From Nostoc linckia FACHB-104 (lineage in GTDB: Bacteria; Cyanobacteriota; Cyanobacteriia; Cyanobacteriales; Nostocaceae): a DNA stretch of 64,000 nt. The translations under genes were made by a program, and so were the position numbers. The notes under the pieces were generated by a model that saw only the letters and a list, made by a program, of their open reading frames with translations, did no database searches and was not told the DNA's origin. The first letter of the stretch is position 1, and every line of letters starts with the position of its first letter. Of the stretch, positions 38,506-58,600 are shown piece after piece. The DNA lies in NCBI RefSeq assembly GCF_014696615.1, contig NZ_JACJQJ010000029.1, positions 41,276-105,275 on the forward strand, written 5' to 3'.

Positions 38506-38561
38506 AATAAAGTTATACAATAAATAATAAAGTTGTACAATGCATAATAAAGTTATACAAT
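38506..38561 (+). repeat. Three TnsB-type binding sites at the transposon right end
   Basis: Three direct 16-mers, AATAAAGTTATACAAT, AATAAAGTTGTACAAT and AATAAAGTTATACAAT, start at 38506, 38526 and 38546, exactly 20 bp apart. Dense, regularly spaced sites are the mark of a Tn7-type right end, next to tnsA. Confidence 0.85.
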
Positions 38562-38606: not shown

Positions 38607-39425
38607 ATGGCTAGAACCAAGCAAGAGTGGACGCAAGCTAAGTTTGAGCGCTACATGAAGGAAGGTCGAGGTCAGGGTAGTGGAAAAAATTATCAACCCT
38701 GGATAAAAATTCAAGATTTTCCGTCAAAGGGTAGGGTATCCAGACCACCCGGTTGGAAAACAAACCGAGAGCATCATCTGTTCTCTGATAATGAGAAACG
38801 GTTATTTTATTTGTTTGAGTGGTCGGACAGCATTATCGATATAAGGGAGCAATTTCCTTTACTTGACTTAGACTTAGCGATTAATATTGCTACGGAAATG
38901 GGGATTGACTATCCCAAAGATCCTAATAATGAGACTCCCTATGTTTTAACTACAGACTTTATGTTATCTGTGAAGCAAGGGAAGCAGATAGTTGAAAAAG
39001 CTCGCACTTTCAAACTGGTTAAGGATTTAGGAACTAAATCTGTTGCTGAAAAATTTGAGCTAGAAAAGCGTTATTACGCAGCAAAAGGGATTGATTGGGG
39101 AATTATTACAGAGAAAGAAATTCCCATGTTTTTAGTCAAGAATGTTGAGTGGATTCATTCTAGTTATAAGTTAGAAGCAGCCGCAGAAATCAAGGTTGAT
39201 GAGTTACATAACATCGCAAATATTTTAAAGTCAAAATTGCAAAAAAGTGATTTTACCATTAATAAAATTACAAATTGCTTAGATAAAGAAATGAATTTAG
39301 AAGTAGGTACATCACTCTACATTTTTAAGCATCTCCTCGCCAATAAGAAAATAATTATGGATATGCAAACAAGCACAATATCTAGTTCTATCTCGGCTAG
39401 AGAAATTCAAAATATTATTTTCTAG
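38607..39425 (+). CDS. tnsA: TnsA-like transposase endonuclease
   Basis: TnsA cuts the 5' ends of the transposon, which makes cut-and-paste movement possible. The 272-residue protein has the PD-(D/E)XK-type active site: Glu63 in SDNEKRLFYLFEW, Asp117 in YVLTTDFML and Lys136 in ARTFKLVKDL. Their spacing is close to E63/D114/K132 of Tn7 TnsA. The C-terminal part (residues 170-272) is a winged-helix-like region expected to bind TnsB/TnsC. It is a separate gene, not fused to tnsB. Its start is the ATG at 38607 with AGGAG upstream. tnsB follows after 26 bp. Confidence 0.92.
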   Translation: MARTKQEWTQAKFERYMKEGRGQGSGKNYQPWIKIQDFPSKGRVSRPPGWKTNREHHLFSDNEKRLFYLFEWSDSIIDIREQFPLLDLDLAINIATEMGIDYPKDPNNETPYVLTTDFMLSVKQGKQIVEKARTFKLVKDLGTKSVAEKFELEKRYYAAKGIDWGIITEKEIPMFLVKNVEWIHSSYKLEAAAEIKVDELHNIANILKSKLQKSDFTINKITNCLDKEMNLEVGTSLYIFKHLLANKKIIMDMQTSTISSSISAREIQNIIF

Positions 39426-41680: not shown

Positions 41681-43352
41681 TTGGAGATGGGTTGATATTC
41701 CAAATGGTGAATCTGCTGCTGTAGCTAAATATAATGACCATAAATTACCAGAGTACAATAATCACCCTTTGATTCAAGCATTGCCTCCAATCCTTTCTGG
41801 AGAAGAATTTATTGAAAAAGCAATAATACTTCCCAGTTACGCGCCTGAAGAGAGGGAATTGGCTGCACACCGTCGATTTCACTGCGTTGAACGATTATCT
41901 AGATACTTTCAACCTTTGAATAAAACAGTCAATTTACAGCAGGTTATGTGTGCATTATTAATGCAGGGCTACATAGCACGTAATATTTTAAAACCTGAAT
42001 ATGCACGCCGATCCCGACAAATTTATGAAGCAATAAAAGCGGGAGATGGTAAAAATTTAGATGTTTATGTAAATGTTCCTACATCCACATCCGCATCTGG
42101 TTTAACATTAATTGGCCCATCAGGGATGGGTAAATCTACTAATTTTAGTAATATTCTTAATTTATATCCTCAAGTAATTCTGCATCCAGAATACAGTACT
42201 TACCAAATTGTTTGGTTAAAAGTCGATTGTCCTCATGCTGGTTCTCTCAAAGGCTTATGTACAGATATATTTGTTGGTATAGATAGGCTACTGGGAACCA
42301 ACTATTTCAAGAAATTTGGTGCATCACGAAATTCTGAAGATTATATGCTGGCTCAAGTCGCTCAAATCGCTCATACCCACCATTTGGGAGTTTTAGTGAT
42401 TGATGAGATGCAAAATTTAGTGACAGCAAGAAGAAGTTGCTCTGATATGCTGAATTTCTTAGTAAAAATGGATAACATCATTGGAGTTCCTGTTATTCGT
42501 ATTGGTACCAATGAAGCTTTTCCAATTCTTCAAGGTAATTTTAGAAATGCTAGAAGGGGAACTGGTGAAGGAAGCGTTATTTGGGACAGGATGAGAAATG
42601 ATGATGAATGGTATTTTTTCATGGAGACCATGTGGGAGTATCAATGGACAAAAATATCTACTGATTTTTCTGATGAGCTTAATGATGTTTTTTATGATGA
42701 AAGTCAAGGAATTATTGATATTGCCATTAAGCTTTATAAAATGGTTCAATGGAGAGCTATTTCATTGAGTGGGAAAGAGGAAATAAATGTCAATTTAATT
42801 AAACAATCTGCCAAAGACGGATTATTTTTAGTAAAACCAATGCTAAATGCTATCCGCTCTGGAGATAAGGAGTGGATGATTAAGTATAAAGATATAGCTC
42901 CTATTGATACTACAGAATATTACAATCAGTCTTTGTCTAATCTTCAAACTAATAACCTAAAAGAAATTAGCAGATTAGCGAAAAAACAGCAGACTGAAAA
43001 TGGACATTTATCAGCAACTCAACGTCATATAATTCTTGAACTTTTAGGATTAGATGTAGAACCACAATTAGCCAAGAAATGTGCAGCACAGGTAATTACT
43101 TCTGGCGAAGAAGATGCTGATATTCCTATTTTGGTAAAACAAGCTTATGCTCTAGCTTTGGGGGGGCAAGTTCAAGAGAATACTATAACGAAAGTGAGAA
43201 CTCGCATATTAAAATCAAAGCCAAAATATCAAGTAAATGATATTAGACTAATTGTGGAAAAAGCAAAGAAAAATCAAACTAGTGCATATGAAGGCTTGAA
43301 ATCGATAGGAATTATCAAAGATCCAGTTCAGGATTTTATCACTATCACCTAA
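41664..43352 (+). CDS. tnsC: TnsC-like AAA+ regulator
   Basis: TnsC is the ATPase that links the target selector to the TnsA-TnsB transposase. I place the start at the GTG 41664 (VNKIDDW) with GAGAGGAAC upstream, giving 562 residues; a TTG at 41628 would add 12. Walker A is GPSGMGKST at residues 151-159 and Walker B is VLVIDEMQN near 243-250. RIGTNEA follows as sensor 1. It is larger than the short TnsC of type V-K systems and fits the Tn7-type protein, which also contacts TnsA. Confidence 0.92.
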   Translation: MNKIDDWRWVDIPNGESAAVAKYNDHKLPEYNNHPLIQALPPILSGEEFIEKAIILPSYAPEERELAAHRRFHCVERLSRYFQPLNKTVNLQQVMCALLMQGYIARNILKPEYARRSRQIYEAIKAGDGKNLDVYVNVPTSTSASGLTLIGPSGMGKSTNFSNILNLYPQVILHPEYSTYQIVWLKVDCPHAGSLKGLCTDIFVGIDRLLGTNYFKKFGASRNSEDYMLAQVAQIAHTHHLGVLVIDEMQNLVTARRSCSDMLNFLVKMDNIIGVPVIRIGTNEAFPILQGNFRNARRGTGEGSVIWDRMRNDDEWYFFMETMWEYQWTKISTDFSDELNDVFYDESQGIIDIAIKLYKMVQWRAISLSGKEEINVNLIKQSAKDGLFLVKPMLNAIRSGDKEWMIKYKDIAPIDTTEYYNQSLSNLQTNNLKEISRLAKKQQTENGHLSATQRHIILELLGLDVEPQLAKKCAAQVITSGEEDADIPILVKQAYALALGGQVQENTITKVRTRILKSKPKYQVNDIRLIVEKAKKNQTSAYEGLKSIGIIKDPVQDFITIT

Positions 43353-43356
43353 TTCT

Positions 43357-44500: not shown

Positions 44501-45118
44501 ATGACTCAGTTTCCTTACGTAGACTTGAGCTTTAGCATCATTGGTCATACTTTGCCCATAGACCACGGCTATGAGTTATATGCTGCACTTACCCATTTAC
44601 AGTCTAAACTCCATTCTTTAGATGACCTTAGTATTCAAACTATTCCTGGTATTCCTGATGGAAACGGTTCATTGCGTCTCAATGACCACTCTAGACTGAG
44701 GATTCGCCTACCAGTAGATAAAATACCGTTAGTTTATCCCTTTGCTGGTAAATCGCTAACAATTGGCAAGCACAAAATTCGTTTAGACATTCCCCAAATA
44801 TATGTCCTTCGTGCTGTGGAGGAATTGCGATCGCGCATCGTTGTGATCAAAGGCTATGAAGAACCAGAGACCTTTTTAAAAGCAGCACAGCGCCAAATAA
44901 AGAAACTAGGTATCCAGGGAACACCTAGCATCCCCATAAACGCTAATGGCAAACCAAAACTTAGAACTATCAAAATCAAACAGTTTAAAGTTGTAGGTTT
45001 TAGCTTGGAAGTCACGAATCTCTGCAATGAAGATTCGTTGAGTTTGCAAATACACGGTATTGGTGGAAAGCAGAAGATGGGTTGTGGAGTCTTTGTCCCA
45101 AGCAAGGAAAAACAATAA
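44501..45118 (+). CDS. cas6: Cas6 crRNA-processing endoribonuclease (MYXAN/Cmx6-like)
   Basis: Cas6 cuts the repeat RNA and stays on the crRNA 3' hairpin. The 205-residue protein matches Cas6/Cmx6 of the type I-B MYXAN branch: YVDLSFSIIGHTLPIDHGYE at the start, RLRIRLPVDKIP, and the C-terminal glycine-rich loop GIGGKQKMGCGVF that ends RAMP-fold Cas6 proteins. His16 and His22 (IGHTLPIDH) are candidate catalytic residues. It starts at the ATG at 44501 with GGAG upstream. Confidence 0.88.
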   Translation: MTQFPYVDLSFSIIGHTLPIDHGYELYAALTHLQSKLHSLDDLSIQTIPGIPDGNGSLRLNDHSRLRIRLPVDKIPLVYPFAGKSLTIGKHKIRLDIPQIYVLRAVEELRSRIVVIKGYEEPETFLKAAQRQIKKLGIQGTPSIPINANGKPKLRTIKIKQFKVVGFSLEVTNLCNEDSLSLQIHGIGGKQKMGCGVFVPSKEKQ

Positions 45119-45135
45119 AAGTTGCTCGAATATCT

Positions 45136-46668
45136 ATGATTGAGAATGCAATTAATTCCAAAATTCAACTAGATCTGAGCGATCCAACTATGACATGGTT
45201 GCACCGTGCAGGGATGGCAGGACTTTGGATGACACTCAAGCAGTTAGAACAACTATATCCAATACCCCAAAAAAGACCAGGTAGTTTAACTTGGTTACTG
45301 ACTCCGCGCACTATCAGTCTTTACTGGGAAAGTGAAGATTTCAGTGTTTTAGACTGGTTACTTAAGCAATCATTCCAAATTAGTAATGAAGGATTAATCA
45401 AGCTCACTGCTTTGAATTTTGTAGAATTGGATCTTCAAACACAGATAATAATCCACTTAGGAATTACAGGAACATTTCTCCAACATAATCAGTTTTTTAA
45501 GTCAGCAGGCAAAGAATCCATATCGCTGGCTGTTAATGGTGTAAAACTTGTAGATGAGTATCAAAAAGCTGCATCCTATGCTCATCAGCATTTTGCCAAA
45601 AAGCTCTGCACTAAAGATGGGCAATTATTGCAAGAGCCAATTGGTATAGCAGGTTGGCTTTATCCAGGAGCAGTGGTTCGTCATTATGCTTTTAAAGCAC
45701 AAACTAAATTTCAGGAAAAACCAGAACATGCTCTAGCTTTATTATTTGCACCTGTAGCATGTCAATATTTTATTTTGCGCTCGCACACCCAAGCAACAAC
45801 GAAGCAGTATGCCTTAGTTATACCTGAAGTAAATGATCTAGAAGTTTATAGTGCACGTTTCTCAAATTTAGGCGACTTGAGTTGCAAACATTTCTATGTA
45901 TCTAGTTTAGGAGATGCAGGGTTAAGATTTCTTAGTTATGAAATAGCTAGAGAGCTAGTTCAACAGCATAAACTCCAAAGATGTCAGGTAATTTCATTTA
46001 GAAATGTAACTTGGTCAAAACAGCAAAAAACGCGCACAGAAGTTGCTTTAGTAGAAGCAAATGAAGAAGTTCAGCTTCACTACAAGCTGGTTATTAGTTG
46101 TTTTCCTGAATACGAAGTTTTTAAACATAGTTCAGGCAATTTCATCATTACCAGTATGTGTCAATGCATAATTGCTGATAACCTAGCAAATAGTTTACCT
46201 TGGTGGTCTAATTTCTATGCCTTAACTAAAACTAAAAATTCATTTAAACAAATTTTTCACGAAAAAGAGGGAATCTGCAAAATGATTCAAAATTTTGAAT
46301 GGAACATCAATGAATATAAATTGTTTATTGAAACTTGTCATGAAGCATTAAAAGTAATATATGCAAAAATTTATAGCAAGACAAAAGAAGATGAATATGC
46401 ACAAATAGAGCGAGAAAATACACGTATTATATCTCAATTAGGACGTTGTACAAATGCTGCTACTTTTCGGGAATTTATTTCCAGACTCTGGGGAAGAGCA
46501 GGACATCTTTCAACTCTTGAAGAGCATTGGGAAGAATTACTACCAGTAACTACAGGAATGATAGATTGGAAGATAGCAAGAGATTTAACTATTATTGCTA
46601 TTGCTAGTTATCCAATAAAACGAAATAAAAATGCTCAAAATTTAAAGCAAGAGCCAACGAAGGCTTAG
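45136..46668 (+). CDS. cas8: Cas8 large subunit (Cas8a1/Cmx1-like, type I-B)
   Basis: Cas8 recognises the PAM and helps Cascade open the target DNA. I use the ATG at 45136 (MIENAINSKIQLDLSD), giving 510 residues. TMTWLHRAGMAGLWMTLKQL is characteristic of the MYXAN-type Cas8a1/Cmx1 proteins. Otherwise the sequence is diverse, as usual for Cas8. No nuclease motif is visible. The gene follows cas6 with an 18-bp gap and leads into cas7. Confidence 0.85.
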   Translation: MIENAINSKIQLDLSDPTMTWLHRAGMAGLWMTLKQLEQLYPIPQKRPGSLTWLLTPRTISLYWESEDFSVLDWLLKQSFQISNEGLIKLTALNFVELDLQTQIIIHLGITGTFLQHNQFFKSAGKESISLAVNGVKLVDEYQKAASYAHQHFAKKLCTKDGQLLQEPIGIAGWLYPGAVVRHYAFKAQTKFQEKPEHALALLFAPVACQYFILRSHTQATTKQYALVIPEVNDLEVYSARFSNLGDLSCKHFYVSSLGDAGLRFLSYEIARELVQQHKLQRCQVISFRNVTWSKQQKTRTEVALVEANEEVQLHYKLVISCFPEYEVFKHSSGNFIITSMCQCIIADNLANSLPWWSNFYALTKTKNSFKQIFHEKEGICKMIQNFEWNINEYKLFIETCHEALKVIYAKIYSKTKEDEYAQIERENTRIISQLGRCTNAATFREFISRLWGRAGHLSTLEEHWEELLPVTTGMIDWKIARDLTIIAIASYPIKRNKNAQNLKQEPTKA

Positions 46669-46730
46669 TAAAGCTTACAAAAATTTAATATTAATGTATC
46701 AAAAGGTGTTAAGTTATAAGGATTTTGCAC

Positions 46731-47678
46731 ATGTTCCATCTTTACGGCAATATTTTGACTTGTTACGGAACTGCAGCTAATAATCGTGGAGAAAATGAAG
46801 GTAACATCACTACTTTACAAAAAATATTTTGGAAAGGAGAAGTTCACACTACTGTTTCTGCTGAAGCTATTCGTTGGGCATTGCGGTATTACTGGCAAAA
46901 TATGGGTTATCCAGTCAATCTAGTTTGGGATGAGAATGCTCAACCAGAGGCAGATTACATATTGCAAGATGCCAATCATGACAATGCACGTTTTATTGAT
47001 GATGATGTATTGGGATTTATGAATTTAGAAGCAGCAAAAGTTGAAGCTGCTATCAAAATCGAAACTGATGTTCAGGACGAAGCATCTTCTAATAAGAATA
47101 AAAAACCTGCCAAGGGCAAAACAAAGCCAAAAGGTACTAAATTGACTAAAAGGGGTGTACTAGAGGTAACTCGTGCTGTATCAATGATTCCTTATAGTGG
47201 AAATATTACCTTTAATGCTGTAAGTGGAAAAAAAAGTAATACTTCTCTTTATGGCACAGAAGTTCATGCTACTCGTTATCAGTATGGGTTTGCAGTAACT
47301 CCTAATAGTCTCAAAGATAAATCTCGGATTAATGCTATTCTGGATGGCTTAATTTCGATTGGTGAAGTCGGAGGAAATCATGCTCGTTTTCTATATGATT
47401 TCTCTCCTGAGAGTATTATTCTTAGATGGACACATGATTTTTCTCCTCGCTTTCTCTATTGCTTTGCAGAGGATGAACGAGGACAATTATCAGTTCTTAA
47501 CTTAAGAGGACGGATAGAGGCTGGAGATATTAATCCTAAAGAATTATGGATAGGAGGAGCTATTTCTAACAGTCTAGGAGATTTAGGAGCAAATGTATTT
47601 TCTGGAGTGAAGGCAGCATCAGAAGCATTAAAACAGGTGATTGCTAAAGATTTGCAGTTGTCTTCTAGGAGTTTGTAG
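46731..47678 (+). CDS. cas7: Cas7 backbone subunit (Cst2/DevR family)
   Basis: Cas7 forms the helical backbone of Cascade along the crRNA. The 315-residue product (ATG at 46731, ribosome site AAGG near 46718) has the DevR/Cst2 opening HLYGNILTCYGTAANNRGEN. VHTTVSAEAIRWALRYYWQ follows, and later TKRGVLEVTRAVSMIPYSGN and SLYGTEVHATRYQYGFAV. A Lys-rich insert (residues 117-142) lies in a loop. The cas5 start is one base after its stop. Confidence 0.9.
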   Translation: MFHLYGNILTCYGTAANNRGENEGNITTLQKIFWKGEVHTTVSAEAIRWALRYYWQNMGYPVNLVWDENAQPEADYILQDANHDNARFIDDDVLGFMNLEAAKVEAAIKIETDVQDEASSNKNKKPAKGKTKPKGTKLTKRGVLEVTRAVSMIPYSGNITFNAVSGKKSNTSLYGTEVHATRYQYGFAVTPNSLKDKSRINAILDGLISIGEVGGNHARFLYDFSPESIILRWTHDFSPRFLYCFAEDERGQLSVLNLRGRIEAGDINPKELWIGGAISNSLGDLGANVFSGVKAASEALKQVIAKDLQLSSRSL

Positions 47679-47679
47679 C

Positions 47680-48312
47680 ATGACAACTATCACATTAAAA
47701 GTTGAAGTTCCCATCGCTTGTTTTCGTGAATCTCGTGCTAGGGAATATGTCAAAACTTATCCAGTACCACCACCATCGACGGTTTATGGAATGCTGTTAT
47801 CTCTAGTAGGAGAGGAAAATAGGTACAAACATTGTGGCGTAAACCTAGCGATCGCATTGTTATCTAACCCAGAAAAATCAGTTGTGATGCGGAAATTTCG
47901 GAGATTTAAACATAAGGATATCCAGCATCCTAGTAATGCTAAACCTGACTACCAGGAGTTATTGACAAATATTGAATTTTTTGTTTGGGTGACTAAAGGA
48001 ACAGATAAGGCTAAGCCAACTTTAGCAGAACGATTGCAGCAAGCATTTGCTAATCCTACCTCGATCAATCGTTTTGGTGGACTGTGCTTAGGTGAAAGTC
48101 GGGATTTAGTTAATGCTGTGACTCTTTCACCGCAAAAAAAGGATGAGGAGCTACTGCGGTGGTTAGTTCAAGATGAAGATGGTTTAATAACTTTGCCGTA
48201 TTGGGTGGATCATGTTGGATCACGGGGAACACGGTGGTTGCATTATATACTTCAAGATTCCCAACTATGGCAACCACCTGAGTTGTCGTGGACTGTAATT
48301 CAAAGTACTTGA
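47680..48312 (+). CDS. cas5: Cas5 (DevS/Cmx5 family)
   Basis: Cas5 caps the crRNA 5' handle in Cascade. The 210-residue protein starts at the ATG at 47680 with TAGGAG upstream. It shows the Cas5/DevS pattern: LKVEVPIACFRESRAREYVKTY and PVPPPSTVYGMLLSLVGEE near the start, then RFGGLCLGESRDLV. It is the last cas gene; the CRISPR array follows 270 bp downstream. Confidence 0.9.
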   Translation: MTTITLKVEVPIACFRESRAREYVKTYPVPPPSTVYGMLLSLVGEENRYKHCGVNLAIALLSNPEKSVVMRKFRRFKHKDIQHPSNAKPDYQELLTNIEFFVWVTKGTDKAKPTLAERLQQAFANPTSINRFGGLCLGESRDLVNAVTLSPQKKDEELLRWLVQDEDGLITLPYWVDHVGSRGTRWLHYILQDSQLWQPPELSWTVIQST

Positions 48313-48583: not shown

Positions 48584-48831
48584 GTGCTTCAACATTTTAT
48601 GCCGTCAGGCGTTGAGCAGGCTTTATAAGTAGTGCCGTCCAAAAAAGATAAAACGTACTTCAACATTTTATGCCGTCAGGCGTTGAGCAGCCCAGATGCT
48701 GAGTCCTCATCTGCAAAAATGGTGTATGCTTCAACATTTTATGCCGTCAGGCGTTGGGCAGCGGAAGATTGTGATTAACTTGACTTCGGCTGATTTAGTG
48801 CTTCAGCATTTTATGCCGTCAGGCGTTGAGC
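48584..48831 (+). CRISPR. CAST CRISPR array: four repeats, three spacers
   Basis: Repeats of 36 bp start at 48584, 48655, 48726 and 48798. They share the core CTTCAACATTTTATGCC followed by GTCAGGCGTTGAGCAG. GCC-GTCA-GGC can form the Cas6 hairpin. Repeats 1 and 2 differ by one base. Repeat 3 changes GAG to GGG in the handle and the first base. Repeat 4 changes CAAC to CAGC and loses its last bases. Spacers are 48620-48654, 48691-48725 (35 nt each) and 48762-48797 (36 nt). The third matches comM. Confidence 0.95.
48762..48797 (+). other. Homing spacer matching comM
   Basis: The spacer begins CGGAAGATTGTGATTAAC and matches 38409-38444 with three mismatches. It is the leader-distal spacer and lies between the two divergent repeats. 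It differs from the local comM copy, so it was not recently captured from it. Confidence 0.9.
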
Positions 48832-49226
48832 TTTTATTTCACACTATCGAAAACTAAATATTAACTTGTTAAGGAATGGTTTTAAGAATTAGACTTGTCA
48901 GTTAACAAATAAAGTACCTATCAGCAACTGTAATGAAACAGGGAGAAGCATGATATCAATCGGATACTTTCAGTAGACCACCTACTGAGGATATTTAGTG
49001 AGCTACTCCGCAAGGCATTTGATGAACTGTCTACAAACTTTTTGAAATAGCACTCACTCAGGAAGCGATCGCTTAATATGAAAACTGATATGTTGTGCTC
49101 ACATTAGTCTTTCAAATACCAAATTCCAACAGGTTGTAAAATTTCTGATATTGCTTCTAAAAGCCTCAGCAAAAGAAAGAGACGTGAATTGAACCACGTC
49201 TCTAATTTTCCGTAAATTGTTGATAA
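48832..49226. other. Intergenic region after the array
   Basis: About 395 bp without a supported gene or obvious repeat. It separates the CAST core from the cargo. Confidence 0.45.
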
Positions 49227-49529
49227 CTAAGCTACATCTGCTACTAGCAATCCGTTGGCAGCAATAATTAGAAGCTGGGCTTGTAAAGGAGTGCCACAAC
49301 AGAGTTGGTCATCGCTATTGGAGGGTTGTGCTACCCATTTACCTTCGAGATTCTGATAAAAAGTTCCCAGCAAATGGTAGCCGCTCCAGACTCGGTACAG
49401 TTCTCCAAGCTCATCTGGCACTGAGTCAATCTCGATTTCTGGTGCTATCTCAGTTAACTGGTCAATATAATTCTCAAACTCTGATTTAGCCAAAGTTTCG
49501 TCATCAGATACCTCTTGTGTAATCTTCAT
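49227..49529 (-). CDS. Small acidic protein of unknown function (paralogue 1)
   Basis: I use the ATG at 49527-49529 with GAGG upstream, giving 100 residues. The protein is acidic and soluble. Its core IDSVPDELGELYRVWSGYHLLGTFYQNLEGKW is shared with the next gene on this strand, which makes the two paralogues. The last 25 residues are Leu/Ala-rich (LLIIAANGLLVADVA). I do not recognise a characterised family. Confidence 0.6.
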   Translation of the reverse strand: MKITQEVSDDETLAKSEFENYIDQLTEIAPEIEIDSVPDELGELYRVWSGYHLLGTFYQNLEGKWVAQPSNSDDQLCCGTPLQAQLLIIAANGLLVADVA

Positions 49530-49712
49530 ATCAAATAACCTCACTTATGGGGTTTAACAAAAGGCGATCGCAATCTGTGGACGAAGGGCAATTACTAACT
49601 GTGCGATCGCAGTTCCGTTGCAGTCTTGTGTGATCAAATTCATATTTTTCGCCCTGTCAAAAGTAATAAGAAGAAAGAAGCGCAGTGCGCTTCTTGATGA
49701 TGGGTGTCGTTC

Positions 49713-49991
49713 TTACACAGCTAAAATTGCGTTTATGGCTTCTTGGTCACTGTGCCAAGCCAGGCGCTCATCGCTGTTGCAGGGTTGAGAAATCCAAAGT
49801 CCATCAACATTCTGGTAGAAGGTGCCGAGTAAGTTAATCCCTTTTTCGCCACCCCAGACGCGATACAACTCGCCAAATACATCGGGAACAGAATCGATTT
49901 CGTAGTGTGCTGCTTGCTCTGATTGTTGAACCAGGTAAATCGCAAGGTCAAGTTGGGCGATCGCTTGATTATCTAAAATCGCTTGAGTCAT
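49713..49991 (-). CDS. Small acidic protein of unknown function (paralogue 2)
   Basis: I use the ATG at 49989-49991 with GGAG upstream, giving 92 residues. The core IDSVPDVFGELYRVWGG plus LLGTFYQNVDGLW and QPCNSDERLAW matches the paralogue at 49227-49529. The N-terminal third is helical and differs. It lies upstream of its paralogue on the same strand and divergent from an XRE regulator. Confidence 0.6.
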   Translation of the reverse strand: MTQAILDNQAIAQLDLAIYLVQQSEQAAHYEIDSVPDVFGELYRVWGGEKGINLLGTFYQNVDGLWISQPCNSDERLAWHSDQEAINAILAV

Positions 49992-50155
49992 AATTATGAT
50001 CTCCATAGTTTTGGAATAGAGAGGCGGTTCGTTTTCCAGGCAAGCCGCCTTCTCTATTACCAATCTACCGTAAAGAACTTTATGGTGTCAATATATTTGC
50101 GTAAAGATTTTTGCGCTATACTCCTGATATAAGTTTTTTTATGGGAGAGATACTT

Positions 50156-50368
50156 GTGTCGCGAGTTGCGGAATTAAGAAAACGCTCAGATCTTACACAA
50201 CGGGAGTTAGCCAATTTGATAGGGGTTACAGAAACCACTGTTCGCAATTGGGAAAACAACCGCAGCGGAGTCGAATGGTTTGAGCGTATTGCAAAGCTAT
50301 GTACTGCACTGAACTGTACACCTAATGAATTGTTCGGCTACGAAAAGGTAGGGGAAAGCGATGATTAA
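50156..50368 (+). CDS. XRE-family transcriptional regulator (copy 1)
   Basis: I favour the GTG at 50156 (VSRVAELRKRSDL) with GGGAGAG upstream, giving 70 residues; an ATG at 50141 would add five. The helix-turn-helix is LTQRELANLIGVTETTVRNWENNRSG. The last 8 bp (ATGATTAA) are also the start of the GIY-YIG gene, so translation is coupled. It heads a duplicated XRE/GIY-YIG array. Confidence 0.8.
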   Translation: MSRVAELRKRSDLTQRELANLIGVTETTVRNWENNRSGVEWFERIAKLCTALNCTPNELFGYEKVGESDD

Positions 50369-50777
50369 TCCTTCTACCATCAACCCTCTCACCCTGCCTT
50401 CAGTGGCATTAGAGGAGCGATCGCAGTTACCCATAACACCCTGCATTTACTTCGCAATTGATTCTGAAGGCGTTGTTCAGTATATTGGCAGGGCTGAAAA
50501 TTTAAAACAGCGCTGGGTTTCGCATCATCGTTATGAATACCTGAAGCTTTGTAGTCAGGTGAAAATTTCTTATTTACAAATTGACGACATTGTATTTTTA
50601 CCCGAAATTGAAGCTGCATTAATTAGGCACTTTGACCCTCCAATTAACAGAATGGGGGGAGCCTGGATTAATTCTGTTGACAAGCCAAAAGGATTGAAAG
50701 TAAGGCGAATTGTAAAGCAAGAAGTTGATGCTCCAGGGTTGGGCGATCGCATCAAGCAAGCAAGCAAGGGAAGCTAG
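50361..50777 (+). CDS. GIY-YIG nuclease-fold protein (copy 1)
   Basis: The 138-residue protein has the GIY-YIG core: CIYFAIDSEGVVQYIGRAENLKQRWVSHH (residues 27-55) and a conserved Glu in LPEIEAALIRHFDPPINR. The first motif is IYF instead of GIY, as in many such proteins. The end (LGDRIKQASKGS) is not GIY-YIG sequence but the start of the next XRE protein read through a tetranucleotide repeat. It overlaps the XRE genes on both sides. Confidence 0.8.
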   Translation: MINPSTINPLTLPSVALEERSQLPITPCIYFAIDSEGVVQYIGRAENLKQRWVSHHRYEYLKLCSQVKISYLQIDDIVFLPEIEAALIRHFDPPINRMGGAWINSVDKPKGLKVRRIVKQEVDAPGLGDRIKQASKGS

Positions 50778-50937
50778 CAACCGCCCAGTTACACAGCTTG
50801 CTAAGGAAGTTGGGATATCTCGTAACTATTGGTATCAGTTGGAAGCCGAGGCTGTTTTAGGCGGAGTAGCAGAAGAAACTCTTCGGAAAATCGAAGAAGT
50901 TTTAAGTGTCGATCTGGGAGTACGCTTTAATGATTAA
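50728..50937 (+). CDS. XRE-like regulator (copy 2), frame altered at its start
   Basis: The helix-turn-helix VTQLAKEVGISRNYWYQLEAEAV is intact, followed by LRKIEEVLSVDLGVRF. The start MLQGWAIASSKQAREAS is odd. The natural N-terminus GDRIKQA is found in the GIY-YIG frame, four bases out of phase, at (CAAG)4 (50753-50768). Losing one CAAG unit would restore GDRIKQAREASNRPVTQL. It ends with the ATGATTAA overlap into GIY-YIG copy 2. Confidence 0.6.
   Translation: MLQGWAIASSKQAREASNRPVTQLAKEVGISRNYWYQLEAEAVLGGVAEETLRKIEEVLSVDLGVRFND
50753..50768 (+). repeat. Tetranucleotide repeat (CAAG)4
   Basis: Four perfect CAAG units at the junction between GIY-YIG copy 1 and XRE copy 2. A change of one unit shifts the reading frame. 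Confidence 0.8.
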
Positions 50938-51406
50938 TCCTTCTACTATCAATCCCCTTGCTTTACCCTCAATGCCTTTAGGATGGAAAAAGGCTTTACC
51001 TAAGTGTGCGTGCATATATTTCGCTATTGACGCAAGCAATCAAGTTCAATACATAGGACAAACGCATAATCTTAAGACAAGATGGATTAATCATCACAGG
51101 TTAAAACATTTGCAAGATATGGATGGTGTGCGTCTGGCTTGGATGGAAATAAGCGATACAAGCCTATTACCAGAAATTGAGCAAGCTTTAATCGCTTGGT
51201 TTGATCCACCCATTAATCGACTCAGAGATGGGACGTGCAACCCCTCAACTGACAAGACAAGAGTTTCAACTTACATAGATCAAAGATTAAAAGAGCTTGC
51301 CGAGAAGGTTGGTGCTAGTCAGGGCAGATCTTTGAGCAACTATGTCGAGCAGCTGATTAAGCAGGATGTAATTAGGGCACAGAAGGAGGGAGAAATAACT
51401 GATTGA
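50930..51406 (+). CDS. GIY-YIG nuclease-fold protein (copy 2) with C-terminal extension
   Basis: The 158-residue protein starts MINPSTINPLALPS, almost the same as copy 1 (MINPSTINPLTLPS). It has CIYFAIDASNQVQYIGQTHNLK and LLPEIEQALIAWFDPPINRL. The extra C-terminal 45 residues (STYIDQRLKELAEKVGAS, then LSNYVEQLIKQDV) resemble a ribbon-helix-helix DNA-binding domain. It overlaps XRE copy 2 by 8 bp. Confidence 0.8.
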   Translation: MINPSTINPLALPSMPLGWKKALPKCACIYFAIDASNQVQYIGQTHNLKTRWINHHRLKHLQDMDGVRLAWMEISDTSLLPEIEQALIAWFDPPINRLRDGTCNPSTDKTRVSTYIDQRLKELAEKVGASQGRSLSNYVEQLIKQDVIRAQKEGEITD

Positions 51407-51505
51407 TATTGCGACCAACCCCCTTTCTCTTCCTTCAGTCTCACTGGAAGAGCGATCGCATCTGCTCACAAGGAGCTTATTTACTTTGCTGCCAATTTTG
51501 AATGA
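51399..51505 (+). pseudogene. Decayed third GIY-YIG copy
   Basis: The frame reads IDIATNPLSLPSVSLEERSHL, matching NPLTLPSVALEERSQL of copy 1. It then loses frame at a stretch still similar in DNA to the CIYFAI codons. It begins at the end of copy 2, as copies 1 and 2 begin at the ends of their partners. It is a truncated unit of the array. Confidence 0.65.
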
Positions 51506-51619
51506 AACCAACTATGAACCAACAACTGAATTATTTAACGTGTGCCAAGGCTTAAAAAGCTGTCTCTAAAGAAATGAGAAGAGAGCAAAGTAAGGCGATC
51601 GCTAAAAATTCAATGATGT

Positions 51620-51657
51620 AATATCAAAATTTCTGGATATCCAGAAATTTTGATATT
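51620..51657. repeat. Perfect 38-bp palindrome
   Basis: The left half is AATATCAAAATTTCTGGAT and the right half is its exact complement. The core TTTCTGGATATCCAG recurs at 59642. It could be a terminator, operator or recombination site. Confidence 0.7.
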
Positions 51658-51760
51658 GGCAGCGTCCACAGGCTAGTTACCAGGATTATCGCTATGAAAC
51701 GAAGACAGTGGTCAATACTACATTTTGGTGGGATGCACCTGTTGATCGACGCTGACGGTA

Positions 51761-51908
51761 GGATACAGCTGGCGAATGGTAGGTGACACCCCTCACCCCC
51801 ACGATTTTATAGGGTTTAAGACGCAATCCTCATAATGCGATCGCCTTTTGAAAGCCTTGTTTTATCGTTTAGTTGAGGGGTATTACCCCCTATTCGCCAG
51901 CTGTATCC
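51761..51908. mobile_element. MITE-like element, 148 bp
   Basis: Perfect 17-bp terminal inverted repeats GGATACAGCTGGCGAAT / ATTCGCCAGCTGTATCC, with further partial pairing inside. The 4-bp direct repeat GGTA flanks it (51757-51760 and 51909-51912). Confidence 0.65.
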
Positions 51909-52262
51909 GGTAGGAGTTGGAATTGAGCCTGATTCAAAAGTGGCGATCGCCCTTCAATAAGGACAACTGGCACAAATGGGACTGCTTGGAGTTTGCTCGC
52001 TTTCCTCCAGAACTAATCCTCCCAAACTGCCATAAATTCTTCCCACTCCTGGTCTATGAAGCGGGGATCGCATTCAACTTTACCGCCGCTATCAAATTTG
52101 GGTGCAACTCAGTCTTATCGAGAGTTAAATAAATGACCTGACAAATTTCCTCAACCGCTGGAGGTAATAATTTTGTCTCTGGTTGTGGTGCTTGCGGGAG
52201 TTCATACTTGCCAGTCTAGCAATCGCTTTGGGGTAGGGATAGTTTGGAAAATTTTTTAACCT

Positions 52263-54671
52263 TCAATCCTGTGATGGGTTAGGGGTATGCTGAACTGGTA
52301 GCAGCAGTGTATCTTCAATCTGCTGTCGTACTTCTCGGCTTACATAACACTCGCTTTTTAGGCAATCTACTAGTAGCTGATTTGCATCGTAATACTGCTG
52401 CAACAGTTTTATTTGTTTGCCACTTAACTGCCAATCATGACCAATATTGCGATACTCAATCATTGCGGCTCTGAGTTTTCGAGTCCATGCTTGACCATTT
52501 GTCTGCCACCAATGCTTAAACACTTCTTCATCATTCACCGCAGGTACTTGTCCTTTGAGTTGTTGGAGAGATCGCCTTAATTCGAGGGAGAGGTCACAGT
52601 CAAGGTTGCAGATTCTTTCGAGGTAGCGTCTGAAGTGAAAATCATTGTCGAGGTCAAGGTCGATGCTAATTCGGAGGGTGCTTTCAAGGTAAAAGTCGAG
52701 GTTAAGGTCAAGGCTACTTGTACCGATAGTTTTGAGGTTGCAGTTATAAGCGATGGGGAAGACGAGGAAACGCTGGGTGAAGTTAGTGGCTAAGCCAAAG
52801 GCAGTTCTGAGGGTAAGGGCATCGCCAAAGTCGAGAGCAAGAGTGCTGTCAAGGGCAAGAGCAAGGGGGTTTTCAAGGAAGTAGATGTAGATGTCGTCAC
52901 TGGAGGAATGTATAGTGCCAAAGCCGGCGGGGTTAAGTTTGAAGTAGACAGATCGAACAGCAGCAGATTTATATGGAGAGTCTACAGAACTAGATTTTTC
53001 TTCAACCCATCTGAGAAACTGCTGTAATGTATCATCATTTGCTACGAGGTCATCAATGCGATGTTTCATCAACTGAAAAAAATCATCAGCATCGCCCAAC
53101 ATCCCCACACTCAACAAGAAAACTTCTCGCCAACGCTTGTCGGTGATATGACTATCTAGCTTTTGAAACACCTGCTGAGAATTACAATTTAAGGTTATTT
53201 GTTTAGCGGTGAAAAACTCATGAAATGTTAGATGAGAAAATGAATAAATTCTCCATGCCCGTTCTACCAGTAATCCATGCTGTGCCTCAATGGATTTTAA
53301 TACTGCTTTGCTTTCTAACAGTAATGCTTCTGGGTCGGTTTGGGTATCAGGTAAATTCTTAATGTAATTACTTATGTATTCTTCTGCATCGGTTTCCTTG
53401 AAAAAGTAATTTCCTTTCTCAAAGGTTTCTAAGGCAATCTTGCTCAGTAGGTGTTGTTTATGTTTGAGCGCAAGTTTATGGTATACCTGATCGCGTTCAA
53501 TTCTGCGTGTACCATCCCATTTTTTCAGTAATATATATACTCCTTCTTCGTAAAGATCAGAACGACTAGAAGGAAAATCTGTCGAATCTCCAAACAGCAA
53601 ACATAAAAGTGTCAAGAGTAAGGGATTAGTTGCTAGTTCTTTGATCGGCGGATTTTGTTCGAGCTTTTCAACAAACTGTTGGGCTTTTACGGGGTCTTTA
53701 TCCTGAAACCATTTGGTAGCAAACTTGGTAATCTGTTTTTGATTAAAGTCGGCAACCTCAACCTCAGTAAAGTGTTCAAACTTGTATTCATTGGCAGCAA
53801 TCCGGCAGGTAATCACAAAATAGCTGGCATCGTACTGAGTAGAAACTTTCTCTATTTCTCTTAAAACCCTGTCATTGTCTGCTTGCCTAACTTCATCTAA
53901 CCCATCTAGCAACACAATTGCTCGACCCTGACGCAACAGCGTTTTAGTTATTTCCTGGTCTGAAATATCGTTGAGAGCAAATTGGTCATTGATATATTGC
54001 AATAAACTTGGTTGCTGAGGTTCTTCAGCAAAGGCTTTGAGTGTAATAAAAATTGGAACACGATCGCTTAAAAAGCACCCTAAGTTACATTGAATTGCAA
54101 TTCTCCTTAAAAAGGTTGTCTTGCCTGCCCCTGGCTTTCCTAAAATCATCAGTTTGGAGTATCGTTCAACAGATTTCAAACCTTGAACTCGCTTCTCTAC
54201 CACCCGACTCAGCCCAATGCGCTCAAAGTCTTCAGGTTTGCAATTTTTCAAAAGCTCAGCTATCTCTAAGCGTCTGCGTCCTGTAATTTTTTCCAGAATA
54301 TTGACATCGGTGTAAATGTCATTTAGCCCGATGGGGTGAGTCATGTCCAGAACACGCATCCATCCACATTGTTTTTGGATATATGCGCTCAGTTTTTCTC
54401 TTACCTGTTGCACCAAATCATCAATACTAGGGGTTTTGCCTACTTGCTCTCCCCCTGTTCCTTCCGCAATCTCAACCCAATCTAAATCTAATGCAGTGCA
54501 GATTTCCTGAAATATACGTTTATCAACAGGTTTTCTGGCAAAGCAATTAATGATTGTTTGACGGCTACATCCAACTACTCCTGCTAAATAGTCCTGTGTC
54601 CATCCTTTGAGTTTAAATGCTGCCTTAGCCTGCTCAAGTCCTGCTTTCGATACCTTAAGAGATCGCGTCAT
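52263..54671 (-). CDS. NACHT NTPase with N-terminal helix-turn-helix (NLR-like)
   Basis: The 802-residue protein has an HTH module (residues 8-70, AAFKLKGWTQDYLAGVVGCS), then a NACHT ATPase. Walker A is LGKPGAGKTTFLRR (about 178-190) and Walker B is [11 protein letters not shown] (about 250-260); HLTFHEFFTAK is the usual NACHT end motif. A Leu/Asp-rich region (about 610-700, LDLNLDFYL and DLDLDNDF) follows. The C-terminal helical domain, ending YYDANQLLVDCLKSECYVSR, recalls the short C-terminal domain of bacterial NACHT defence proteins. It is probably an antiphage or signalling ATPase; no separate effector domain is evident. Confidence 0.82.
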   Translation of the reverse strand: MTRSLKVSKAGLEQAKAAFKLKGWTQDYLAGVVGCSRQTIINCFARKPVDKRIFQEICTALDLDWVEIAEGTGGEQVGKTPSIDDLVQQVREKLSAYIQKQCGWMRVLDMTHPIGLNDIYTDVNILEKITGRRRLEIAELLKNCKPEDFERIGLSRVVEKRVQGLKSVERYSKLMILGKPGAGKTTFLRRIAIQCNLGCFLSDRVPIFITLKAFAEEPQQPSLLQYINDQFALNDISDQEITKTLLRQGRAIVLLDGLDEVRQADNDRVLREIEKVSTQYDASYFVITCRIAANEYKFEHFTEVEVADFNQKQITKFATKWFQDKDPVKAQQFVEKLEQNPPIKELATNPLLLTLLCLLFGDSTDFPSSRSDLYEEGVYILLKKWDGTRRIERDQVYHKLALKHKQHLLSKIALETFEKGNYFFKETDAEEYISNYIKNLPDTQTDPEALLLESKAVLKSIEAQHGLLVERAWRIYSFSHLTFHEFFTAKQITLNCNSQQVFQKLDSHITDKRWREVFLLSVGMLGDADDFFQLMKHRIDDLVANDDTLQQFLRWVEEKSSSVDSPYKSAAVRSVYFKLNPAGFGTIHSSSDDIYIYFLENPLALALDSTLALDFGDALTLRTAFGLATNFTQRFLVFPIAYNCNLKTIGTSSLDLNLDFYLESTLRISIDLDLDNDFHFRRYLERICNLDCDLSLELRRSLQQLKGQVPAVNDEEVFKHWWQTNGQAWTRKLRAAMIEYRNIGHDWQLSGKQIKLLQQYYDANQLLVDCLKSECYVSREVRQQIEDTLLLPVQHTPNPSQD

Positions 54672-54744
54672 AGCTGTGAGTGCAACTTTGACATAAGTAT
54701 TACATAACTCTAATAGCCTTCTCTGACCAAGAGTAAGTTGAAAA

Positions 54745-54809
54745 CTCGTACTTTAAAAGAAGAAGAAAAAACCTGGATTTTACCCAGGTATGAACATCGA
54801 AAGTACGAG
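54745..54809 (+). promoter_or_regulatory. Nested hairpin before the small membrane protein gene
   Basis: Outer arms CTCGTACTTT / AAAGTACGAG (perfect 10 bp, 54745-54754 and 54800-54809) enclose an inner ACCTGG / CCAGGT hairpin. The outer right arm ends ten bases before the ATG at 54819. Confidence 0.55.
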
Positions 54810-54818
54810 GCAACAACC

Positions 54819-55157
54819 ATGAAATCTGATAGTCAACCCCGCAATTCCAATCTTAATTCAACTTCGACTGGAGTGCTGTTAAAGCAAGCAGCAGAGAATT
54901 TACCCACCTCCAACGAACAGCCGTTTTATACAATGCTCAAACAGTTGGTAAGCGCTGTCAGCAAAGACAGTAGTAACAATGTTGCAATTGTGGCGATCAC
55001 TGCAATGTTTTTTGCTTTTGCTGTAATGCTGTTGAAACCAGCAACACCTGTAGTTAATCCAAGAGCGATTAACGTGCATAGCAATTCCACTACCACAGTG
55101 ACAAATCACCAAGAGCAAAACCAACGCATTGATGATGGCACTGATCGCGGGTCATAG
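54819..55157 (+). CDS. Small membrane protein (paralogue 1)
   Basis: I use the ATG at 54819, giving 112 residues. A polar N-terminal half contains NLPTSNEQPFYTMLKQLVSAV. A membrane helix follows (VAIVAITAMFFAFAVMLL, about residues 56-75), then a Thr/Asn/Gln-rich tail (TTTVTNHQEQNQRID). A paralogue lies at 58601-58942. It is divergent from the HTH-NACHT gene and precedes the HTH-pentapeptide gene. The function is unknown; a membrane partner of these proteins is possible. Confidence 0.65.
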   Translation: MKSDSQPRNSNLNSTSTGVLLKQAAENLPTSNEQPFYTMLKQLVSAVSKDSSNNVAIVAITAMFFAFAVMLLKPATPVVNPRAINVHSNSTTTVTNHQEQNQRIDDGTDRGS

Positions 55158-55267
55158 TTGAAGAAGCGATCGCCATGCTTGTAAAATTTTTCAACCGAAG
55201 AGTGATCGCTTCACTTAAGTGTGATGGACTTGTGTAAAACTAATGTCATAGTTGTGGCAGGTTGACG

Positions 55268-58012
55268 ATGGGTAGATCTTGCCGAGCATCGAAAGTTGGA
55301 CTGGAAAAAGCTGAGGCAGCATTCAAACTCAAAGGATGGACACAAGAATACTTGGCGGGCGTTATCCAACGTCGCCGCCCAACAATCATTAATTTTTTTG
55401 CCAGAAGACCTGTTGACAAGAGTGTCTTCCAAGCGATCTGCACTGAATTAGGCTTGGAGTGGGGAGAGATTGTAGAACTGGAGTCAGAATTAGAGCAGCC
55501 CAGCAAATCTGATATGGATACAGCACAACAGAACGCTAGTGAAATTATTCAAGAACTAAGCGGCACTACACAGCTTTTGACTGATGAAAAAAGCTATGCA
55601 TTTGCTATTGCTGGTACTGTCTCTACAGAGGACATAGCAAAGCTCAAAGCGATCGCTGCTCTTTTAAAAGATTTAGCTCAAGATACTTCTATAAAAATTA
55701 TTGATATTGAGTCTGGAAGCATCAAACTGATTTTGGAAGGTTCTCAACAAGGACTTGAGCGACTTGAAGCTTTATTTAAATCAGGACAACTAGAAGATGT
55801 ATTGGGCATTTCTGTAGAAGATGTTGAGTTTGTAGCGCTCCAGAATTCTAATTCCGATCAACAACGATTGGCATTTACTATTGCTGGTGATGTTACTGAA
55901 AGTGACATAGCAATATTAAAAGCTGCACTTGCTGAAAATTCAAATGCTAAGGTATCCAAAAAGAATATACAGCAGCCAGCTAGAGGATTGGACTTCTCCT
56001 GTCAAAATTTTCGTGGGTGCTCCTTCAAAGGTCAAAACCTTGAGGGTGCAAATTTTAGTTATGCAGATATCCGCTCTTGCGATTTTACAGGGGCAAATCT
56101 TAGGGGAGCTAACTTCACTTATGCTCAAGCTGGACTGCAAAAGCGTTGGGCTATTTTTTTAGTTTGTGTTTCTTGGGTGCTATCTGGAATTTCAGGATTT
56201 TTATCAGCCTACACTGGACTATTGATAACTTCTATATTTGACACTTTAAGTCGAGTAAATCAGGTTAGCATCTGGACTGCCTTAATAGGAATAATTGTTA
56301 TTATTATAGTTATCATTCGCCAAGGATTAAACTTAGCCTACGCCGGATCTGTCGCCTTCGCCGTCACCGGAGCCTACACCGTCGCCTTCGCCGTCGCCGG
56401 AGCCTACGCCGGGTCTGTGGCCTACGCCGGAGCCGTTGCCTTCGCCTTCGCCTTCGCCTTAACCTTCGCCTTCGCCTTCGCCTTCGCCGGAGCCTACGCC
56501 TACGCTGGAGCCAGAGCCGTCGCCTTCGCCGTCGCCTTAATCTTAGCCATCGTCTTAGCCTTAGCTGGAGCCAAAGCCGTTGCCTTCGCCGTCGCCGGAA
56601 TTTTATTTAGTGCTTACATAACTGGGAGAGCAATGAAAGGGGATGAAAAATACGCCATTATTCGGAACATTGCTGTTGCTTTTGCAGCCTTTAATGGTAC
56701 AAGCTTTCGCAACGCCAACTTGACTGATGCCAATTTCACATCTGCCACACTTAAAGGCACAGATTTTAGAGAAGCTATTTTGACTCGCACTTGTTTTTAC
56801 AAAACTAAAAAACTGGATCGTGTTCGTCCTGGAAAAACTTACTTGCAAAAAGCACAAGTGGTAAGGGTGTTAGTGACAGGGTGGGGACAAGAAAAAAACT
56901 TTGATCGTGAAGATTTGCGAGGGATCAATTTTCAAAGTGCGAATTTAGTAGATGCAAGTTTTATTGGTGCAGATTTGAGCGGAGCAAACTTACAAAATGC
57001 AAATTTATCCGGAGCAAGACTAGTACGGGCACAACTGGACGGAACTGATTTAACAGGCGCTACTCTCACTGGAGCATACATTGAAGACTGGAGCATTACC
57101 ACTGATACAAAATTTGATGGGGTCAGGTGTGAATACGTTTATATGCGGCTGCCCACGAAAGAAAACTTTGACCCGTTTCGCAAACCAGACAACAGACAGG
57201 AGGTATTTGCGGATGGTGAGTTTGGGGATTTTATTAAACCAATCTTTGACACCCTCGACCTTTACCATGCTCAAAGTGTAGAACCCCGTGCTATTGCAAC
57301 TGCATTCAAAGAACTAGCAGAAAACAACCCAAATGCAGAACTGGAAATAGTTGCAATAGAAAGGCGGGGTGAAGATAAATTTTTGCTTCGTGCCAAAACT
57401 GCTCCTGAAGCTGACAAGTTGCAATTGGGTGCAGAATATTTTGAAATATATAACGAGCTAAGGGGATTAGCCGAACAAGAATTAAAAGCATTGATAGCAG
57501 CAAAAGATAACAGAATTCGTAGTTTAGAAAATTTTGTTACTCAGGCGCTACAACGCCCTAGTTATTATTCAGATGTAGGACAGGTAGCTACTATGACTAA
57601 CAATCAAGGTAGCTTTAAAGTTGGTGGCGAGATCAGAAATGTGCAAGGCGATAACAACAAAGTAGTGACGGGCCGCAACATCAACACAAGTGGCGGTAAC
57701 TATAACGAGCGCATTCAAATCCAAGGTAATTATTATACTGCTGCACAACAGCAGAACCTTGCCCAAGCTGCTGCCGAGATTCAGGTATTACTAAAACAGT
57801 TAGAGCAAACTTACCCAACTACTACTACATCAGAGCAAATGATAGTAGCCGCAGAAGCCATCAAGCACATTGAGAGTAATCCATCATTGAAAAAACGTGC
57901 AATCAATGCAGCAAAAGAAGGTGGGTTGCCTGCACTTGAGAAAGCGATTGATAACCCAGCAGGTGCTTTTATTGTTGGCGCTATCAAAGGCTGGCAGGAA
58001 GCAGAAGATTAA
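55268..58012 (+). CDS. HTH and pentapeptide-repeat membrane protein
   Basis: The 914-residue protein starts with the same HTH module as the NACHT protein at 52263 (AAFKLKGWTQEYLAGVIQRR). A two-copy alpha/beta domain follows (about 108-215; IIDIESGSIKLILEGS), perhaps TRADD-N-like. Next come pentapeptide repeats (about 250-290), membrane helices, and an Ala/Phe/Val/Tyr stretch (about 357-447) encoded by GCCTTC/GCCGTC-type repeats. More pentapeptides lie at about 475-500 and 550-610. The C-terminal domain (ending NPAGAFIVGAIKGWQEAED) follows a Gly/Asn-rich beta stretch and is shared by many cyanobacterial signalling proteins. It is probably a membrane adaptor or effector. Confidence 0.75.
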   Translation: MGRSCRASKVGLEKAEAAFKLKGWTQEYLAGVIQRRRPTIINFFARRPVDKSVFQAICTELGLEWGEIVELESELEQPSKSDMDTAQQNASEIIQELSGTTQLLTDEKSYAFAIAGTVSTEDIAKLKAIAALLKDLAQDTSIKIIDIESGSIKLILEGSQQGLERLEALFKSGQLEDVLGISVEDVEFVALQNSNSDQQRLAFTIAGDVTESDIAILKAALAENSNAKVSKKNIQQPARGLDFSCQNFRGCSFKGQNLEGANFSYADIRSCDFTGANLRGANFTYAQAGLQKRWAIFLVCVSWVLSGISGFLSAYTGLLITSIFDTLSRVNQVSIWTALIGIIVIIIVIIRQGLNLAYAGSVAFAVTGAYTVAFAVAGAYAGSVAYAGAVAFAFAFALTFAFAFAFAGAYAYAGARAVAFAVALILAIVLALAGAKAVAFAVAGILFSAYITGRAMKGDEKYAIIRNIAVAFAAFNGTSFRNANLTDANFTSATLKGTDFREAILTRTCFYKTKKLDRVRPGKTYLQKAQVVRVLVTGWGQEKNFDREDLRGINFQSANLVDASFIGADLSGANLQNANLSGARLVRAQLDGTDLTGATLTGAYIEDWSITTDTKFDGVRCEYVYMRLPTKENFDPFRKPDNRQEVFADGEFGDFIKPIFDTLDLYHAQSVEPRAIATAFKELAENNPNAELEIVAIERRGEDKFLLRAKTAPEADKLQLGAEYFEIYNELRGLAEQELKALIAAKDNRIRSLENFVTQALQRPSYYSDVGQVATMTNNQGSFKVGGEIRNVQGDNNKVVTGRNINTSGGNYNERIQIQGNYYTAAQQQNLAQAAAEIQVLLKQLEQTYPTTTTSEQMIVAAEAIKHIESNPSLKKRAINAAKEGGLPALEKAIDNPAGAFIVGAIKGWQEAED

Positions 58013-58110
58013 GGAAACGAAAAGCGATCGCCCATCAAAAGTAAAATTTTCCAACTATGCCCAACAAAAAACCCGCCTTTTGAGAAACCTGGGGGAGAAA
58101 CGGGGGCTGG

Positions 58111-58308
58111 TGTAGAGCGACGAATTATTTGACCGTAGCGACAAATTAAAAGTCAAGTTTTTCACAGATGCAAGCTTTACTGGAAGCGCATCTAATTTTT
58201 GGGTTTTCTGATATGGAGTTGTAGAAATTGCTTGAATAGATAATGAAAAAGCATTTAGATTAATGACAAACAATCTGGCGTTATAGTCGAATAATTTGTC
58301 GCTCTACA
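58111..58308. mobile_element. 198-bp mini-transposon with V-K CAST/Tn7-like ends
   Basis: Both ends read TGTAGAGCGAC(A/G)AATTATT inward and carry two related motifs each. On the left GCGACGAATTATTTGAC and GCGACAAATTAAAAGTC start 21 bp apart. On the right (complement) are GCGACAAATTATTCGAC and GCCAGATTGTTTGTC. From memory, the ShCAST end has GTGACAAATTATCTGTC and GTGACAGATTAATGTC, also 21 bp apart. It has no genes. It interrupts an HTH gene remnant. Flanks GCTGG and GCTCC are not a clean duplication. Confidence 0.65.
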
Positions 58309-58424
58309 GCTCCTTCTAACTTCTTGGCAAGCTGTTGTTGTGTTCCATACAATCTCTGTAAAGCTTTCTCGGCTCGTTCTAAACCTTGAGGAGTGGCGCT
58401 GATAGTTTGCTTTCTCTTGGTCAT
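58309..58424 (-). pseudogene. HTH gene remnant broken by the mini-transposon
   Basis: From the ATG at 58422-58424 the frame reads MTKRKQTISATPQGLERAEK, then QRLYGTQQQLAKKLEGA. This is similar to the HTH opening of the neighbouring genes (GLEKAEAAFKLKGWTQEYLA). It then runs into the mini-transposon and stops inside it at 58281. No continuation is found on the other side. Confidence 0.55.
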
Positions 58425-58558
58425 GCCTGGCAGATGAGAGTTTATAGCTTACATTATTTGCACAATCACAAACCAAGCATAGGGCAATCACAAAATAATT
58501 TTAGATAAACCATTAGCCAGTCAAAACTGAAGGAATTCCATTCAATGCTAAAAGAAGC

Positions 58559-58594
58559 AACCTTGTTTCTCCAGTTCACCGAAGAAACAAGGTT
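58559..58594 (+). promoter_or_regulatory. Hairpin before the second small membrane protein gene
   Basis: Perfect 12-bp inverted repeat AACCTTGTTTCT / AGAAACAAGGTT, ending six bases before the ATG at 58601. The paralogue at 54819 also has a hairpin in this position, but of different sequence. Confidence 0.55.
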
Positions 58595-58600
58595 ATAAAT

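Follow-up and report, generated by a model that had tools for sequence, protein, structure and literature searches.

A subgroup of type I-B1 CASTs uses comM as its att site through a crRNA and has lost TnsD, according to a 2024 review (PMC11406308, citing Hsieh & Peters, NAR 51:765), and a review from December 2024 still gives TnsD homing for type I-B (PMC11656645); sources cited here by PMC number are represented by excerpts. An earlier, sequence-only reading of the locus described here had stated that all homing reported up to now for type I-B CASTs relies on TnsD, which is out of date in view of the comM subgroup. Its main claim, that this element homes into comM by a guide stored in its own array, is known in kind because PMC11406308 describes such elements. 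The element analysed here shares with the subgroup type I-B1 machinery, a single TniQ, the loss of TnsD and a crRNA that targets comM within its coding sequence, and it lies in comM. The review, as excerpted, speaks of one crRNA and mentions neither two guides nor ends at two sites around a deletion. The second comM guide and the transposon ends at two comM sites appear to be new; a literature search, whose coverage stopped short of the primary paper on the comM subgroup, returned no recognised report of two comM guides in one CAST.

The type I-B1 element AvCAST (Tn7743) has the same gene order and gene types, and its TniQ (P0020, Trichormus variabilis ATCC 29413, which we take to be the source of AvCAST) is 60% identical. 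It homes to glmS with TnsD, whereas the element described here sits in comM and no TnsD was found with it. AvCAST reportedly needs a 5'-AT PAM and inserts 43–49 bp downstream (PMC12719977), resembling the PAM and the insertion distance at the host's comM sites, which is 45–50 bp according to how the target duplication is counted. CASTs of types I-F3 and V-K likewise home to the chromosome by a guide kept in the element, but with another effector, and special repeats or a special position distinguish their att guides, whereas both comM guides here lie in an ordinary array (PMC11406308, PMC11656645). The TnsF-guided elements Tn6022 and Tsy share the target gene comM, but are guided by protein to its Walker B region (PMC10293859); the junctions here fall at codons 90 and 466, and none of the 18 window ORFs scanned is an integrase-type gene. 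In engineered VchCAST deletions, two guides place two loxP insertions and Cre removes the DNA between them (PMC11702153), whereas the present locus is natural and its recombination is inferred rather than engineered with Cre.

The window, that is, the whole stretch of DNA analysed, is the final 64 kb of contig C104 in a genome of 9.39 Mb assembled in 181 contigs. From 38495 onwards it carries a type I-B1 CAST with tnsA, tnsB, tnsC, tniQ, cas6, cas8, cas7, cas5 and a short array (Table 1). Traits of type I-B1 that the element displays are separate TnsA and TnsB, TnsC, a TniQ with a partial TnsD domain, and TGT/ACA ends with TnsB-type sites (by the strict motif, three on the tnsA side and two at the distal end on contig C173). 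It lacks two others, TnsD and insertion behind glmS, which we do not regard as required for type I-B1 because some elements are said to lack TnsD (PMC11406308). As expected for type I-B1, it has cas5, cas6, cas7 and cas8 of type I-B, and cas3, cas1 and cas2 were absent among the 18 window ORFs that were profile-scanned; the nine of these that lie beyond the operon genes were without Cas domains. With its distal-end junction at C173 position 17151 (locus L004, 5152), the element comprises at least 39.6 kb (window 38495–64000 on C104 plus C173 17152–31305). The 36-bp repeats of the array begin at 48584, 48655, 48726 and 48798, and those flanking spacer 3 are the most divergent from the reference copy. 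The cargo up to 64000 encodes NACHT/NCH2, TRADD-like N/pentapeptide and GIY-YIG proteins. Two NACHT/NCH2 proteins and two proteins with TRADD-like N plus pentapeptide repeats (52263–54671, 55262–58012, 59837–61975 and 62324–63913) are possibly the products of paired defence or signalling genes.

Table 1 Features of the element and its insertion site in the window
Feature	Position	Strand	Basis
comM 5' remnant, nt 1–269	38226..38494	+	TIGR00368, PF13541 matches; final 5 bases TTAGC adjoin element
ATG, PAM position of protospacer 3	38406..38408	+	sequence
Protospacer of spacer 3, comM nt 184–219	38409..38444	+	33/36 identity to spacer 3
tnsA-side transposon end, TGTGG...	38495..38560	+	TnsB-type motif sites at 38507, 38527, 38547, spaced 20 bp
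tnsA	38607..39425	+	PF08721, PF08722
tnsB	39452..41680	+	PF09299
tnsC	41628..43352	+	PF13401, PF05621
tniQ, 315 aa	43357..44304	+	PF06527, PF15978; partial TnsD domain at C-terminus
cas6	44501..45118	+	PF09559, TIGR02807
cas8, Cas8a1/Csx13 type	45082..46668	+	TIGR03485, TIGR03486
cas7	46725..47678	+	TIGR02585
cas5	47641..48312	+	TIGR02586
CRISPR array, 4 repeats, 3 spacers	48584..48833	+	repeat identities 100, 97, 94, 92%
Spacer 1	48620..48654	+	no target match
Spacer 2, comM guide, comM nt 1316–1350	48691..48725	+	33/35 in G007, G002, G005
Spacer 3, comM guide, comM nt 184–219	48762..48797	+	33/36 in host comM, 35/36 in G035
Element cargo side	48834..64000		reaches contig end; distal end outside window, on contig C173

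What the sequence-only reading had reported for spacer 3 was borne out: the spacer matches the comM 5' remnant in 33 of 36 bases, ATG lies directly 5' of the match, and the tnsA-side end begins 50 bp past it. The mismatches fall at spacer positions 12, 25 and 36, and the next-best place in the whole window, on both strands, reaches 22/36. A chance match was rejected, as 20 shuffles scored no higher than 24 against 17 comM-bearing loci. Aligned to uninterrupted comM of relatives, the spacer had ATG at the same place in all nine genes read (15 loci). The start of the tnsA-side end is fixed because it is homologous to the end of an element at glmS in genome G003; the same end, with its three TnsB-type sites 20 bp apart, adjoins glmS in both G003 and G042, and the G003 element is bounded at both ends by the 5-bp duplication GTAAT. 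With up to three mismatches, spacer 3 occurs in 13 of the 217 family genomes and is present twice in the host genome only. It fits the comM of G035, which belongs to another genus, in 35/36 bases and that of G046 and G515 in 34/36, so that it is unlikely to have been copied from the host's own comM.

Aligning the intact comM genes of G003 and G007 to the window showed that comM also matches spacer 2, in 31/35 bases in G003. ATG precedes this match in eight of the nine comM genes read (15 loci), with ACG in G005. Protospacer 2 is missing from the host genome, where this part of comM is lost, and was read on the comM of relatives. The best matches of spacer 2, at 33/35, lie within the host's own genus, to which G007 belongs, and the spacer was found in 4 of the 217 family genomes. 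Spacers 2 and 3 each exceed their own shuffle maximum against comM; spacer 1 only equals its maximum and had no match in plasmids, phages or viral contigs.

The second guide corresponds to the distal end of the element. On C173 the 3' remnant of the host's comM begins at nt 1396, directly after that end, which carries two strict-motif TnsB-type sites and shares 88.6% identity with its counterpart in the G003 element across 210 bp; a single A at the junction may belong to either side. With the usual 5-bp duplication (nt 1396–1400), the tnsA-side junction at this second site would have followed nt 1400, which lies 50 bp beyond protospacer 2. Since the two protospacers lie on the comM sense strand, the two insertions would share one orientation. 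Judged from the sequence, each end of the element records a different guide. The account of the locus by one guide, as in the sequence-only reading, fails at this point, as the ends mark two comM sites approximately 1.1 kb apart (codons 90 and 466). The guides do not share a codon register (phase 0 for spacer 3, phase 1 for spacer 2, as read in 9 of 15 loci), and a preference for the best-conserved parts of comM was not supported (percentiles 70 and 50; 10 of 15 comM loci).

Different 5-mers adjoin the two ends, TTAGC on the tnsA side and AAATT on the distal side. The element thus lacks the 5-bp target duplication common to both ends that is a type I-B1 trait, and the unlike 5-mers indicate that the junctions did not come from one simple insertion; we read the missing common duplication as a sign that two insertions took place. 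The stretch of comM between the two sites, nt 270–1395, was not found in the assembly. A comM profile search of the genome returned only the two remnants and a weak match in a 377-residue frame that is present in other genomes too, and a DNA search with nt 286–1416 of G007 comM returned only spacer 2 itself (40 of 51 first-pass candidates scored). On their outer sides the two junctions align with a single intact comM locus in G003, with 98.7% identity on the 5' side (1757 bp) and 98.2% on the other (789 bp). The genome holds one full copy of each element end, the remaining matches being short and weak, together with one cas8, one tniQ at E <= 1e-40 and one tnsB of the element's kind; two further tnsB matches are 28–32% identical. 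Both contigs continue unbroken through their junctions. The ends of C104 and C173 do not overlap, so the joint between them is not assembled.

The locus probably arose from two guide-directed insertions and a later crossover within the element, by which the middle of comM was lost. Each crRNA would lead TniQ-Cascade to its own comM site, with the element inserted in one orientation at both, probably into separate copies of a polyploid chromosome or in succession. The crossover would then fuse one insertion's left half with the other's right half, with loss of the intervening comM sequence. Two independent comM matches in a three-spacer array, with equal 50-bp spacing, the same strand and ATG, speak for the involvement of both guides. 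With ends just past both matches and the middle missing, the element was likely steered into comM by both. The claim that a guide carried in the element's array directed the insertion is well supported, and more strongly than the sequence-only reading could know, because the additional comM guide explains the other end. The proposed crossover left no direct trace in the sequence, and no relative with the same spacers in an intermediate state was found when 217 family genomes were searched by spacer.

Target immunity has been reported for I-F and V-K CASTs and in I-F fades over several kb (PMC11406308, PMC11702153). If type I-B1 has it as well, insertion into one chromosome at two sites separated by 1.1 kb would be disfavoured. 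Filamentous cyanobacteria are polyploid, and insertions on two chromosome copies followed by a crossover would give the observed product without breaking immunity. Deletion by one end would give it too, so crossover and adjacent deletion are not told apart by the product: one insertion at site 2 by guide 2 would have been followed by joining of the tnsA-side end alone to site 1, by guide 3 and on the same chromosome, with removal of comM nt 270–1395. This route would yield the same two junctions from one element, no shared duplication and no need for a crossover between insertions. However, it needs a one-ended attack in cis over a distance of 1.1 kb, at which target immunity (demonstrated in I-F and V-K but not in I-B1) should act, and cut-and-paste with TnsA normally joins both ends; we regard it as the main alternative, though a rather unlikely one.

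Less probable still is that no deletion took place and that two elements persist, one at each site, with the middle of comM between them and absent from the assembly. The unassembled joint between C104 and C173 in a genome of 181 contigs would allow for this, but two identical elements should break contigs at the element ends, through which both contigs continue, two different elements should leave extra ends, cas8, tnsB or tniQ, of which one each was found, and searches of the assembly did not recover the middle of comM. It is highly improbable that a protein chose comM and the spacers are bystanders or were acquired from comM after insertion, since, although comM is the protein-guided target of Tn6022 and Tsy (PMC10293859), the two different sites each lie 50 bp past their own guide match, spacer 3 fits G035 comM better (35/36) than host comM (33/36), no second TniQ/TnsD was found in the window, on C173 or genome-wide at E <= 1e-40, and no integrase domain was found in the 18 window ORFs of the scan, which did not extend to C173.

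The relatives neither bear out nor refute the point that the sequence-only reading put up for checking, whether related CASTs sit at the same comM site. The tnsA flank was fetched and could be read for 14 related elements from 14 genomes, and every one of them lies behind glmS, which ends 128–156 bp before tnsA; in the fetched stretch three have no cas gene (L151, L152 and L156) and one has only cas6 (L153), and two gave no array in the array search (L147 and L149). No second comM-type element was found, so the case rests on one genome. Compared with comM, no spacer of the 41 from 11 related arrays scores above the maximum of its own shuffles; these arrays include L007, L154 and L160, which are without a readable tnsA flank, and L042, which repeats L006, and L009, which repeats L148, were each counted once with their counterpart. 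A cas8 search gave matches in 39 of 196 relatives, many without tns genes at the fetched locus, and a tniQ search, at E <= 1e-40, gave them in 22 of the order's 388 genomes. Closer relatives were found only in metagenome sets when protein searches were made with tniQ and cas8 (P0002, TniQ 78%; P0122, Cas8 74%), and the best match to TniQ among 233 plasmid records was 37.5%. A long second gene of TniQ/TnsD type is present in G003 (636 aa) and in G439, G078, G036 and G186 (456–645 aa). Searched against the window and C173, the G003 TnsD matched tniQ only, with no separate TnsD.

Several neighbouring observations emerged from these comparisons. Loci L150, L151 and L152 carry related tnsC-tniQ or tnsABC-tniQ genes without cas genes in the fetched stretch, two of them behind glmS. 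The type I-B1 array of L006 (13558–13665) ends in a degenerate repeat, and its single spacer includes a palindrome (AGGCCCAAGTTGGGCCT-like). In G186, comM is split at codon 285 by approximately 27 kb (contig C14, ~35353–62127; L099, L100) encoding two phage-integrase-domain proteins, a DUF6262 protein and a DnaB-like helicase; this insert looks Tsy-type. Extra comM 3' fragments occur besides a longer or intact comM in G004, G006 and G007 (L086, L087 and L089), in G007 approximately 2.2 kb downstream of the intact gene; inspection of these short stretches by eye recognised no CAST end.

Comparison with the G003 element showed that similarity changes sharply at the border of tnsC and tniQ (window 43340–43440; L041, L042 and L043). 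From the tnsA-side end through tnsC the two elements are 94–100% identical, with TnsB 98.9% identical at the protein level, and from tniQ through cas5 they are 70–80% identical. Between G003 and G007 the pattern is reversed, with 67–75% for tnsABC and 95–98% for tniQ-cas. These opposite patterns make the border look like an exchange point that was used at least twice, and the sequence comparisons indicate that tnsABC and the tniQ-cas-array module have different histories. Guide-based homing would then have replaced TnsD/glmS homing when a tniQ-cas-array module was swapped into a glmS-type transposon.

One natural locus here appears to record two guide-directed events, one per end, with the same strand, ATG and 50-bp spacing, which is near the limit of how directly sequence evidence can show guide-based homing. 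By analogy with TnsF elements, for which this has been proposed (PMC10293859), disruption of comM may limit transformation. A tentative and, in our view, doubtful extension is that the double guide is itself a homing trait that makes comM inactivation irreversible, each guide placing one end, perhaps in a one-step product. The locus also points to a route by which a glmS transposon could change its address, as its core is close to glmS elements (TnsB 99%) and its tniQ, cas genes and array come from another lineage. If the deletion reading is true, two guides against one gene would give a permanent natural gene deletion, for which engineered CASTs have used Cre.
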